From Perkinsus olseni (lineage: Eukaryota > Perkinsozoa > Perkinsida > Perkinsidae): a stretch of 64,000 nucleotides of DNA. Under the pieces are notes generated by a model. The model saw only the letters and a list, made by a program, of their open reading frames with translations. It was not told the DNA's origin and searched no databases. The stretch covers positions 1 through 64,000 of the forward strand of contig JABANP010000136.1 of the NCBI GenBank assembly GCA_013115135.1, given 5' to 3'. This document shows, piece by piece, positions 19,124 to 40,400 of the stretch; the stretch's first letter is position 1; each line of letters opens with the position of its first letter. A program made the position numbers and the translations under genes.

Positions 19124-22100
19124 AGGCCGAGGAAGCCCAAGCACTCCGCCAGAAGGGAGTCCGCAGGAGGAGGCAAGTACTGATACAGACGATGATGACG
19201 AAGAAGAAGAGGAGGGCGATGAGAATGAGCAGGTAGTTAGTGATGGGAATCGCTCGAAATGTGGTACTGCTTTTCGAAGCTGGATTTATTTCGGCCTCTC
19301 ACTATCAGTAATGAACTAATCTCGCCATGATGTTTCCCGTGAAATCAACGGCGTTTTATACGAGGGAAATTATGTTTTTCTGCTCTCGTCACTTTCTGTC
19401 TTTTCCGGAAAATTGCGGCTTTTTTCTGAAGGAAATTATGCTATTTTTGGTATTTTGACAATTCTCGTCGTTCTTGATAGGCGGATCCAAACCGTGTGGT
19501 GAAAGGCGGTGGTTGGGGACAAGGCTCGAGTGCGGTTGTCAGTAAACAACAAGGAGTAGTAGGGGCTGTTTTCGCCCTGGTAAAATCGTTCATTGGGATT
19601 GGTAATAAATGGGTGAAGGATGGGCGACTGTTTATGTCTGTTGGAATTGAGCCTCGATCGAAGACCATTTGATATATGCTTGACGGTTGAAAGATTCTGG
19701 TTAATATTTTGGGTGCGTTCGTTTGGCGTTTTGTCAAGAAATTTTGAACTGACGTTGTGCGTCCCGGATGTGTTGGTATTGAGGACACGTTCAGGTGTAT
19801 TGTCGTTGCCGTTCGCCATGATGAAAGGAGGGTATGTGGGCGGTCCTGTGGGACTGGCCATAATAGCGATCATAGCTCATCATTGTATGCAGCTCCTCTT
19901 GGAGACTAGTCGACTGGTAAGCGGAAGGTCCTAGGTTCGATCCCTGGCGGGGGCTTTCATAGTAGATCATGTTGGGCTTGTGAACGTATAGCTACTTGCC
20001 AGAATATTGAATATATTTACCTATCGGCGAGTACCACATTTTTCGTGAATCGTTCTGAAATCGAATCCCGATACGAAAGTACGATATGAGTCTGACTTGT
20101 ATTTACGCTTGTCGCTGTACTGGTTCACGTAACACCAATTCCATACCATAAAAATCGTAACCTTATGAGTACTAGTAAATATTCAATTTCCCTCTCCCGC
20201 TTTTGTACCTCTATCGAGGCCTCGGTGTCGCTCGCAGGTTGCAGTTGCACAGGAGTCTTCCGCTGGAGGGAAAACGACCGCACCTCAAAGACTGTCATTT
20301 GGTATGCTTGGAAAATACGTAAGGCTTGTTGGTGGCGGTGTTTGGCGATTTTGCATCGCTCCGCTGTAATTTTCGGCAGGTTATTGGGCGATGGGGTAAA
20401 GTGGTCGTCGATTACTCACTGTTGGCGTCACAGATGGGATTCTGCGTGGCGTATATAATTTTCATCGCCGCCAATTTGTCTGATGTCATCAAACATGAAA
20501 CGGGCAGTGGCTTTGTATCACAACGAGCAGTAGCCGTATGTGAGTTTGACGGGGCGCTGGGAGGTGGCCTGAATTTTGGGGGCTTGTCGAGAGAAGCGAT
20601 GGTCGATTTTTCTCGCGGTTTTCAGAAGAAGAAATTTTGATCGTGCCTAGAATTTTGCATTGTTTTCGGGTTTTGTGGAGAAATTTCTGTTGGTTTTTTT
20701 GCGAGGTTGTGGATGGAAGTGGGAGTCGTAGGAGTTTCTGAATATTTTTGAAGAGTTTATTGACTGCTGGTGATCAACTGAAGGATGCTGGTTTCCTGCG
20801 CTTCTGTGATGTTTTTTCTTGGGTAAAAACGTCCTGTTTGAGTCAGGTTGCGTGCTGTTGTTGATACCGATAGCGTGGCTGAGGAATCTGAAGGCATTGA
20901 AGATTCCAACACTGATGGCGAACTTAGCGCTTATCGTAAGTTCCACTTCCGACAGAGGACGATATTTTTGTCACTGCGCCACGAAATTCCCCCTCTTTCG
21001 TTCTCTTCAGGCTGGAATCTTGTGGGTGTTCTACTGCGCAGTTGCCCACTTGCCCTTCGCCGACTTCTCAAAACTACACGCCGTCAACTTGCCAGAGTAA
21101 GCGATTTGGGTGCTCTTAGTATATGAGTAAAAACATCCATGAACGGAATTTTTCACTCGTTTTTACTCCCGTCTCAATGACCTTCATAGGAACGTAATAA
21201 AGTTCACCGCGCCACGAAATTGCCTTTTCAGGTACCCCGTATTTTTCGGCCTGGCGGTCTTCTCGTTCGAAGGCATTGGATTGGTACTCCCAATACAGCA
21301 GAGCATGAAGGAGCCTGATAAACTACCGCATCTTCTCAAGATCATCATGATTTGTATCACCAGTAAGCGCGGGAATCTTGAAATCTTGCTCTCACTTGCT
21401 CTTCCTCAACGCTTTCTCAGGTGGTTTTATCATATTTGGCGTTACTTGTTATATATCCTATGGCCCCGATACCAAGTCCATGATCACTTTCAATCTTCCT
21501 GTGCATAAACTAACTTCTGTAAGTTTTCGGAATTTTCCGATTTTTCCAGAGAATTTTCACGAAATACAGGAATTTTTGCTGGCACCGCCGACCCCTAGTA
21601 TCAGAATAGCTTACCAGTATAATCCGCCAGACGGTGAAGCTTTAGATGCGATCATGCGCAGCGTGCTGATCTTGTGATTTCTCGCAGTGATTGATACGAA
21701 CCGCCACCTTTGCATGGAGAAGAAAACGGAAAATTCGTGAAACGATTTTTCCTAGCGAGTTAAAAAAAATTTGAAAATTTTCTGTTTTTCTAGTTTCAAC
21801 TTTTATTATTTTTCGTCGTGGTTTTTCAGTTTCTGCGATTGTTCTACTGTCTGGGTATCTTTTTTACATATCCGATTATGATGTTCCCGGTGTTCCAACT
21901 TATCGAGCACAAATGGCAGCGGTTCTTCGCGGCCCAGGAGGAGGGAGGTCGACGCCATCAGATGGTCTTCCGAGCGTGTTTGGTAGTTGTCACTGGTCTT
22001 ATAGCGTTGATGGGTATGAACGTGCCCAACTTCGGACTCTATTTGTCCCTTATTGGAAGTGTTTGCTGTAAGGGGAGGTCGCGGGTTCGATTCCTGGCGA

Positions 22101-37495: not shown

Positions 37496-40400
37496 TCAAT
37501 GTTGTCTCCTCTCCATGCCCTTCTTGATTCGGGCTAGTTGACGCTTGGTCTCCGAGTTGGGCAACTCGTCAATGTTGTAATACCCAGGGGCCAACTCGAG
37601 TAGCCATTCTCCCTTGATCTGAGCGACGAAAGATACTCACAAGGGAAATCTTCATAGTGCGATAACGAACAGGAGATCAGCGGAGATTTATAGACGAGTA
37701 AGGCTAGCAAAAGGCGCCTAGTCGTCCGCTATCCTGGGACTGAGAGAAAATGATGAGACTAAGTTTGAAGATATCCCCTTATTAAAGGTGGCATCAGTCG
37801 CCTACCATCCGGGCTTGCCCTAAGCGTGCCAAGTCTCCTGTGTCCTACTAGACTTCCCCTTTGGTAGTTTTCATACATACCATGTGCGATCCTCGAGAGA
37901 AATCCCCACCCCTGCAGGATTCGCCCGGATATTACCGTCATGACGGTCCTGATGTAGTTCTTGGCGGTCAATACCAACTCGTGGTAGAGGACCCATTCAG
38001 GCTTGTGTTGAATGACAGTAGACGGATGGAGCATGACCTGAGATAAAAAGACGGAAAATGCCCTTCCCAGGGGATCGAACCCACGACCATGTATTACAAC
38101 TTGATGCTCACGAGTAGTGAGATAAACACCGGCCTTCTGCAAGTGAGCTACTTGCATGAAGAATCCAGATAGCATACACTTCCTCACATTATTTGCGAAA
38201 CTGCAAGAGAGAGCAAGATAGCAAGTGACGCCCAAAGTTCCCGACCCTACTCCGGATGATTTCTGGCTAGACTAGGTGCGCTCAGACCCGCTCGATCCGT
38301 CAATCTCTTCAGCTGAGCCCGGACGTTCTCCGCCGACTTCATTGTACGGTACTGAGAAAGGCTCCCGTAATTTCGTGGCGCGTGACGGTGGTTCTGTATT
38401 ACATTGATGTAGTTGTCCCAGCACCATTGAGACATCGCCCTCTCCACGCCGTTACACTGCACTTTGTAGGCCATATAAGCATCGTATCTGCAGGCCATGT
38501 GCATGCGTGCTGCAGAAACCAATACCACTCCTTTCCCTACGCCTGCATCAGAGTAAGGTGGTCCCCGTCCATGTGTACGAACTTCTGCTTAGCAGCATCA
38601 GCCTCTTGCTGGACTTCCTTCGGTCTCAAGAAGCACTGCGGCACCGACAACATCGCTATGATCGTGAGAGCCTCCTCTGTGCAATGGAACCTGATGATAG
38701 GGCACACAGGGTACGATTATCGAGCGGGAAGGGAAAAGCTCTTATCTCGCCACGTTTTATCTCGTCGTGGCGAGAATCACGGCAACCCTCATCAAGGCTA
38801 TCATCAAGACAAGGCTATCCCATCAACCCTCTTGACGTCACATTCGTCGAGCGGGGATTCCGGGAGCAATCGGCCTTATTCACAATGTAAAAACAATATT
38901 ATTCTGATACTAATATGTAAGGGGACCAAGATCTATGGTAAAACTAACATATACAGCATCTGCTCTGAAGCTTCATATACTGTCGAACGCATGGCCTAAG
39001 AGCCGGTCAGAATCTCAGGAAGGATACAACTTAACGAGAGTTGACCATTAGTGCGGCAAAAGCAAACAGTGAGACTACAGTCCTTTCACGAAGGCGCATT
39101 AACCCCATCAAGATGAGATATATTTTCTTATGTATTTATCCAGGGTGCGGACTTGAGAAGACCCCACCCCACGTAACTTGGTATTGTGAACGAGTTAGGG
39201 CTTCTGGTAGGCCCTCGATCGGAAGCTCTCACCGTCATCTAAACGGTGGTATACCACACTAGAGCCGCTTGCTCTTTACTTCGATGAACAAACCACCCAA
39301 CCGCCGAAAACCATCAAAAGATGTTTGCCAAATTTATAAAATTTGCAAGTGGAATACTACCGTCCACTTCGCAACAGCACTGCGGCCATCTGCGGCTCTA
39401 CTGGGAAGTCGGCCATGGTCCGGCCGAACTCGGTGAGGTCTCCCTCTTCGTCGAGCGCTCCTAGGTAGACGAGGGTCTCCAACGCTCGCATCATGGTCTC
39501 GGGGGCCGGAGGGTCCATGAAGTCAAAATGGACCTGAGATGGTCGCGGGTTCAATTCCTGGCGACGACAGCTCAGTTAGTACCAGATCGTCAATGCCGAG
39601 CTTCTTCAACGTCAAAACGACGGATGAGAGGTTCGAACGGAGGATCTCGGGGAAGGTAGACGCCTGCAAGTCACCGTAACTGAAAGCACACAAGATCCCT
39701 CACTTCCATCCGCCTCTCCGATCGCCCTACGCATTCTCCGTGTAGAGACGGAAGCACTTGCCGGGTCGAGTTCGACCTGCCCGGCCCGCCCTCTGCTGGG
39801 CTGACGCCTGGGAGATGGGGGACACCAACAGGGACTCCATTCTCGTTCGAGGGTTGAACACTTTCTGAACAGGATAACGCAATGGCCTGTCCGGCGGCTC
39901 TCGTGGGAGGGGTGGCGGTTTTCTCTACTTCCACTGAGTGCATCCTGGTCAGACCAGGATCCAAGTTCCCTCCGACCACAGAGCGAAAGGATACGAGTTA
40001 CAGAAGGGCTAGGAGAGCAAAAACAAAGCTCCGCGCACCTGTTTGGAGAATCCCGGATCAACCACATAGACGATGCCGTCGATTGTGATGGAGGTCTCCG
40101 CGACGTTGGTGGCCACGACGACCTTGCGACCAGCAGGCCCACCCTTGTATCGGGGCGGAGGGGCCTCCTCGAAGATCTTCTGCTGTTGTTGTGGGGGAAG
40201 GCTCGAGTAGAGTGGCACCACTAGAAGCTCTCCGTGCTCCCGCATGGTACGCATAGACGCCGTACGCAGCTGCTTACAGGCGTTCTCAATTTCCTAACAA
40301 AAATACCCTACCAGATAATCGAACCCGCGACCTCTAGCTCGTTAGCAGAGGATTCGTCCACTCCGCCAAATCTACCGAATACTACCTCCTCTCCTGTTAG

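Follow-up and report, generated by a model that had tools for sequence, protein, structure and literature searches.

Short introns composed largely of tRNA T-arm-like sequence in unrelated genes of Perkinsus olseni

Introduction

Short interspersed elements (SINEs) derived from tRNAs are dispersed repeats with an internal promoter of the RNA polymerase III (Pol III) type. Perkinsus is a single-celled marine parasite, and here we describe a window of its DNA (64,000 nucleotides (nt) of Perkinsus olseni, positions 1 to 64,000 of contig JABANP010000136.1) in which introns of unrelated genes contain a B box, GGTTCRANNCC, set in sequence resembling the T arm of a tRNA. The closest described systems are introners, which are mostly consistent with DNA transposition and form families with median lengths of 30-654 nt, with evidence of target-site duplication (TSD) in 49 of 130 and of terminal inverted repeats in 72 of 177; the main text of that study does not contain the words 'tRNA', 'SINE' or 'Perkinsus' (PMC9860276). 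In Perkinsus, introns were reported in 72 of 104 genes and were mostly shorter than 100 bp (PMC3101222).

The Perkinsus introns are like introners in being short, recurrent in unrelated genes of an aquatic protist, and possibly in carrying or recruiting splice sites, but they have only a core in common rather than being near-identical, their body is tRNA-like and no TSD was seen (PMC9860276). Similarly, the introner elements of Amoebophrya are repeated introns in an alveolate parasite, but they carry inverted as well as direct repeats and use non-canonical splice sites, whereas the Perkinsus introns are GT-AG with no direct repeats seen at their junctions (PMC7789003). Dada DNA transposons of P. 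marinus provide a further likeness, as mobile DNA tied to tRNA genes in the same genus; however, Dada inserts into tRNA genes, and the short intron copies of Perkinsus are too small to house it (PMC3706591). With tRNA-derived SINEs the Perkinsus elements share Pol III-type internal promoter sequence and dispersal, but they are much shorter, and neither a full body with A and B boxes nor a TSD was seen in them, nor the tail of a long interspersed element, for which no search was made. Among the matches listed in searches of open-licence literature, no title or opening of an abstract described tRNA-derived introners.

Results

The B-box pattern occurs eight times in the window, against a mean of 0.86 over 100 shuffles, none of which reached eight or more. 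The initial annotation had reported seven matches; the excess that it claimed is real, and the copy that it missed lies in an SLC36-like coding open reading frame (ORF; Table 1). Its placement of five copies in introns and one in a tRNA-Arg gene was confirmed, as was a further match that it put at 36716, for which an intron location is not established. A cloverleaf search of the window (ARAGORN, Rfam) returned the tRNA-Arg gene only. Genome-wide (61.5 Mb in 968 contigs) there are 6046 matches, compared with 1033 for the reversed pattern. In a contiguous sample of 264 kb, made up of the window and 200 kb of another contig (C1), we found 16 strict copies, where about 3.5 are expected by scaling the chance rate of the window: three in tRNA genes, seven in introns (five homology-supported, two by reading frame only), two in long ORFs and four not placed. 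The comparison of intronic with intergenic density is limited to these 264 kb, which have no full gene annotation. Ab initio gene finding in the same sample with a fourth-order model either merged genes or predicted just 10 introns and was dropped; codon usage barely distinguishes frames (0.055 vs 0.033 nats per codon).

A position weight matrix (PWM) for the T arm and B box was built from 13 copies, two of whose training windows were off register by one base. Its background is high below 12 bits, but at 14 bits or more it gave 25 hits (a count that takes in the copies used for training, one tRNA and, at a kinesin site, two extra hits), against three in each of two controls. The weak case at 63330 scored 14.2, and DHX15 intron 3, itself a training copy, scored 24.9.

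The introns were verified most fully in the DHX15/PRP43 helicase gene. Spliced by hand, it encodes 731 amino acids plus a stop, which bears out the 732 codons claimed initially, and the product matches the P. marinus protein P0001 at 96% identity, the alignment being ungapped at all 14 junctions. Furthermore, solved PRP43/DHX15 chains match its N-terminal 376 residues, unbroken at the junctions (best match E 1.2e-130, residues 41-376). The boundaries first given for introns 5, 8 and 13 proved exact, and the two weaker cases, introns 1 and 3, are genuine introns, each with a B box that has decayed. In all, 5 of the 14 introns carry the motif in strict or decayed form, a share that is biased because the gene had been picked for the motif. 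By eye, intron 5 contains in turn an A-box-like stretch, an anticodon-arm-like stretch, AGGTC and a T arm; A-box-like sequence was otherwise recognized, again by eye only, in the GPI intron described below.

Table 1. Coordinates of the gene, introns and B-box copies discussed in the text (window positions unless C1 is given).
Feature	Position	Strand	Basis
DHX15/PRP43 helicase gene, 15 exons, 14 introns	37496..41695	-	spliced model and homology
DHX15 intron 1, 57 nt, forward, decayed T-arm/B box 7 nt from donor	41288..41344	-	homology
DHX15 intron 3, 44 nt, forward: GTAGGTC, decayed T-arm, GTGCA, T-run	40684..40727	-	homology
DHX15 intron 5, 92 nt, forward, longest tRNA-like stretch	40294..40385	-	homology
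DHX15 intron 8, 49 nt, reverse exact B box at 39548-39558, 14 nt from 3' splice site	39534..39582	-	homology
DHX15 intron 13, 60 nt, donor-to-B-box distance 16 nt, B box exact and followed by GGGCA and a T-rich tract	38038..38097	-	homology
SLC36-like intron, ~336 nt, donor-to-B-box distance 17 nt	19917..20252	+	Aa_trans, E 1.9e-15, spliced piece
SLC36-like intron, 258 nt, donor-to-B-box distance 16 nt	22068..22325	+	Aa_trans continuous across junction, E 2.2e-23
Intron of unnamed transporter-like gene, 49 nt, reverse exact B box beside donor (GTGGGATTGAACC)	26606..26654	+	frame only
Strict copies in homology-supported introns	19934, 22084, 38081, 39548, C1 134538 (kinesin)
Strict copies in introns by frame only	26618, C1 71849
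Strict copies in long ORFs	16978 (SLC36-like), C1 22520 (320-codon ORF)
Strict copies, placement not settled	36717, C1 126574, C1 61665 (directly before ATG), C1 101448
Exact B box	36717..36727	+	motif match; intron location not established
Exact B-box match within SLC36-like coding ORF, probably chance	16968..16978	-
True tRNA-Arg(TCG) gene	23776..23850	-	ARAGORN/Rfam

Introns of the same kind occur in other genes. Both SLC36-like introns proposed initially have support from the Aa_trans profile, which spans their junctions; the 3' end of the longer one is the likeliest of several AGs. In a kinesin gene on C1, a 49-nt intron, GTGAAGGTCCCGGGTTCGATCCCGGCACCTGCCATTCTCCTCTTCCCAG, splits the P loop AYGQTGSGKT; in KIF4 this motif is uninterrupted (the query also omitted a second presumed intron). 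The GPI gene on C1 contains an 84-nt in-frame insert with a decayed copy, which was found by a PWM not trained on GPI, and the spliced protein is continuous in PDB 7e77 across the insert junction; among the six GPI introns read by eye, one has a clear T-arm-like stretch. Two further introns on C1, at 94848 (forward) and 71849 (reverse), are recognized by reading frame only. The intron at 26606 is likewise an intron by reading frame only, flanked by an open frame of 50 codons on one side and of 41 on the other; its gene, initially labelled as belonging to the major facilitator superfamily (MFS), matches no Pfam family. Judged from their gene models, the introns are real.

Two observations on these genes stand apart. 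SLC36-like paralogues are present as single long ORFs at 5230-6684, 8292-9716 and 15660-16991, with the intron-rich relative at ~19.6-22.5 kb. In the GPI gene, on the minus strand at C1 ~198274-198276, an in-frame TGA stands between YEHRTMVQSAI and GTNCFDQWGVEL, for which sequencing error, a decayed copy and unusual decoding are candidate explanations.

Forward copies have a common layout, in which GT and a few further bases are followed by AGGTC (or a variant of it), the T arm with its B box, about seven acceptor-like bases, in many cases CA, and finally a T-rich tract and AG. AGGTC forms the variable loop in many tRNAs. The distance from donor to B box is 7 nt in DHX15 intron 1, 10 in intron 3, 12 in the kinesin intron, 16 at both 38081 and 22084, 17 at 19934, 23 at C1 94848 (an intron by frame only), 40 in GPI and 60 in DHX15 intron 5. 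Reverse copies are found in DHX15 intron 8, the intron at 26606 and C1 71849, with homology-supported junctions in DHX15 intron 8 only. Both orientations do occur, as first proposed. The initial placing of the B box near the 5' splice site is to be corrected for DHX15 introns 5 and 8.

The 11 element-bearing introns in the length set, which excludes the ~336-nt intron, measure 44, 49, 49, 49, 53, 54, 57, 60, 84, 92 and 258 nt; eight of them fall at 44-60 nt, and three of the 11 are introns by frame only. Among the DHX15 introns that lack a T arm, eight were measured, a count that leaves aside the last intron and includes intron 12 at 50 nt; they are 49, 50, 51, 51, 53, 174, 287 and 670 nt long, so that five of the eight lie at 49-53 nt. 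Most element introns are thus similar in length to short introns without the element, so the element makes up most of them, and a whole element has not simply been added onto a 50-nt intron. Even in the two long SLC36-like introns the B box keeps its distance of 16-17 nt from the donor.

The spacing is also seen across the genome, where GTAA lies within 30 nt ahead of a strict B box at 651 places. When 100 of these were listed, tRNA-Thr-like arrays on two contigs (C11 and C14) dropped and equal spacings within a contig collapsed, 71 places were kept, of which 17 have GTAA at exactly 17 nt (about 2.3 are expected if spacing is uniform) and six at 16 nt. Collapsed in the same way, the control 5-mer GGATG (from 100 of 215) and the donor-type GTGAG (from 100 of 294) gave 2/78 and 3/82 at 17 nt; the peak is therefore specific to GTAA, and it fits a donor supplied by tRNA-like bases. 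We also considered a donor from a tRNA-Thr-like anticodon loop, prompted by arrays containing GTAAGCGGGAGGTCGTCGG, which we take to be tRNA-Thr; strings with AGTGG before GTAATC suit the initially proposed origin in the D loop as well or better. Contig C14 contains tRNA-Thr-like repeats ~181 bp apart.

The T-arm/B-box core, also denoted GGTAATCGRAAGGTC, is a dispersed repeat family. A 23-nt form of it, GGTAATCGRAAGGTCNCNGGTTC, which spans a possible donor, the variable loop and the T arm and reaches well past the B box to GGTAATCG (GTAATCG), has 345 genome places at up to three mismatches, against two for a control. Exact copies number 22 on 19 contigs, some of them perhaps within duplicated segments. 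What the element introns share is this core; similarity over the whole intron was absent in the one intron tested, DHX15 intron 5.

Other short sequences recur in the same DNA. The core ATTTCGTGGCGCG is found at 20987, 21220 and 38370 and on C1, and the 12-mer ATTTCGTGGCGC has 10 exact copies in the 264 kb; the copy at 38370 is in a homology-verified DHX15 intron and the other two window copies are in the SLC36 gene, apparently in introns, so this is possibly another intron-borne family. TGTGCATGCGTG has seven exact copies (38498, within DHX15 intron 10, 51539 and 54936 in the window, others on C1), followed in some by ATACCACTCC, and DHX15 intron 4 contains ACCACTCCTT. GCGGAGCGAWGC has 19 copies at up to one mismatch in the 264 kb, in the window at 20364 (a presumed SLC36 intron), 34962, 35035, 48958 and 51658, and also on C1. 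Elsewhere, positions 767-5152 contain, on both strands, ORFs whose translations by eye resemble retrotransposon pol, and 61221-61295 form a long inverted repeat, almost perfect, to which several miRNA models give sub-threshold matches. On contigs C778 and C823, tRNA genes are clustered with short and regular spacing. A spliced-leader 20-mer has 173 genome places at up to two mismatches and its reversed control none.

Discussion

This analysis establishes that real introns in unrelated Perkinsus genes consist largely of tRNA-T-arm-like sequence. The motif excess, the verified introns, their lengths and the core count of 345 against two together sustain the initial description of introns built from tRNA-like sequence; its further claim, that insertion of such sequence makes introns, stays a proposal. 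For introns that consist mostly of the element and are of ordinary length, and that occur in unrelated genes with the element in either orientation, the simplest account is that an inserted element became the intron, which suggests that tRNA-like mobile sequences can become introns. On what we regard as the best reading, at a probability of roughly 0.45, Perkinsus contains old, diverged and dispersed tRNA-derived short elements, introner-like in behaviour, that are spliced out as introns. We infer that the whole element descends from a tRNA and that its insertion created the intron, a step from 'made of' to 'made by' the element. This reading is independent of the gene around 26606.

Under such a mechanism, copies landing in coding sequence would be removed as spliceosomal introns. 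In the forward orientation, the donor would be a GT on the D or anticodon side of the element, and the T-rich stretch that follows the tRNA-like 3' end would become the polypyrimidine tract ahead of AG. Movement may have been by retroposition of a Pol III transcript, which is a guess. The wider proposal, that tRNA-derived introners of Pol III type made a sizeable share of the short introns of Perkinsus, with tRNA bases as the 5' site and the terminator T-run as the polypyrimidine tract, is tentative and somewhat doubtful.

Several results weigh against this reading. An intron-free copy of 10 joined exon flanks was sought in the genome and none was found, a weak negative because the search retrieved only the genes themselves. 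At the junctions of 11 element introns the longest repeat compatible with a TSD was CAGGT, which is the splice consensus AG|GT itself; TSDs were looked for at the splice junctions only. Pairing of the outer T stem in the 13 non-tRNA copies (23/39) did not exceed that in shuffled sequence (21.0; P 0.28). The intron copies of the window are unmatched by the Rfam tRNA model at E<=10, and the fullest tRNA-like intron, DHX15 intron 5, has no second genome copy at the sensitivity of the search. Near B boxes, GTAAG (279), GTGAG (294) and CTGAG (277) are just 1.3-1.4 times as frequent as the control GGATG (215), all four raw totals being inflated by tandem arrays, so that many of the 6046 B boxes need not adjoin a canonical donor. 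Some copies of the core have AGTGG ahead of GTAATC and others have varied bases there; part of the family thus extends upstream, and its edge is not always the donor. Finally, 30 tRNA-flanking loci of ~3 kb each gave 17 further strict copies outside ARAGORN tRNAs (identical contexts counted once), an unclassified set that is biased to tRNA debris and in which several copies resemble decayed tRNA genes.

A self-comparison of the sampled DNA for presence or absence of introns gave four gap pairs of 371-471 nt, none intron-like and all against one partial SLC36 copy. A genome scan with RF00005, in which 63 of 7618 candidates were scored, is unsuited to counting decayed tRNA copies.

A different origin would be that debris of tRNA-derived SINEs or tRNA pseudogenes lies inside introns that already existed, none being created, and that introns retain these copies because coding sequence cannot tolerate them. 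The family is dispersed, 4 of the 13 strict non-tRNA copies are not placed, and debris would account for the longer introns (84 and 92 nt, and 258 and ~336 nt in SLC36); yet most element introns are about the size of short introns without the element, and in the two long ones, too, the B box holds to 16-17 nt from the donor, which leaves this explanation unlikely, if far from negligible.

Binding sites for TFIIIC can also exist without a tRNA gene, as in ETC-like sites, and a B box of this kind might be kept by selection rather than shared by descent. The short core with diverged flanks, the two orientations, the normal intron length, the lack of covariation in the T stem and the recurrence of other short cores in the same DNA would all agree with this, and the normal length and short core are accounted for no less well than by insertion; however, the core extends beyond the B box to GGTAATCG, and forward copies often have an acceptor-like end, CA and a T-rich run for which TFIIIC binding has no need, and we think a conserved motif unlikely. 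Lastly, degenerate matches could have arisen by chance and been selected in the reading, as the high PWM background below 12 bits, the two of 13 strict copies in long ORFs and the choice of DHX15 for its motif might imply. But the window, genome, PWM and 23-mer counts are all far above their controls, and the GPI intron turned up in a gene that had not been singled out beforehand. Chance is hardly credible: it is refuted for the excess, and could hold just for single weak cases such as 63330.

The origin of new introns is a long-standing question. If the reading of these introns as inserted tRNA-derived elements is true, a small and ubiquitous RNA-gene sequence can supply both a splice donor and a pyrimidine tract. 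Furthermore, the other sequenced species of Perkinsus (P. marinus and others) would allow the gain of such introns to be dated directly.

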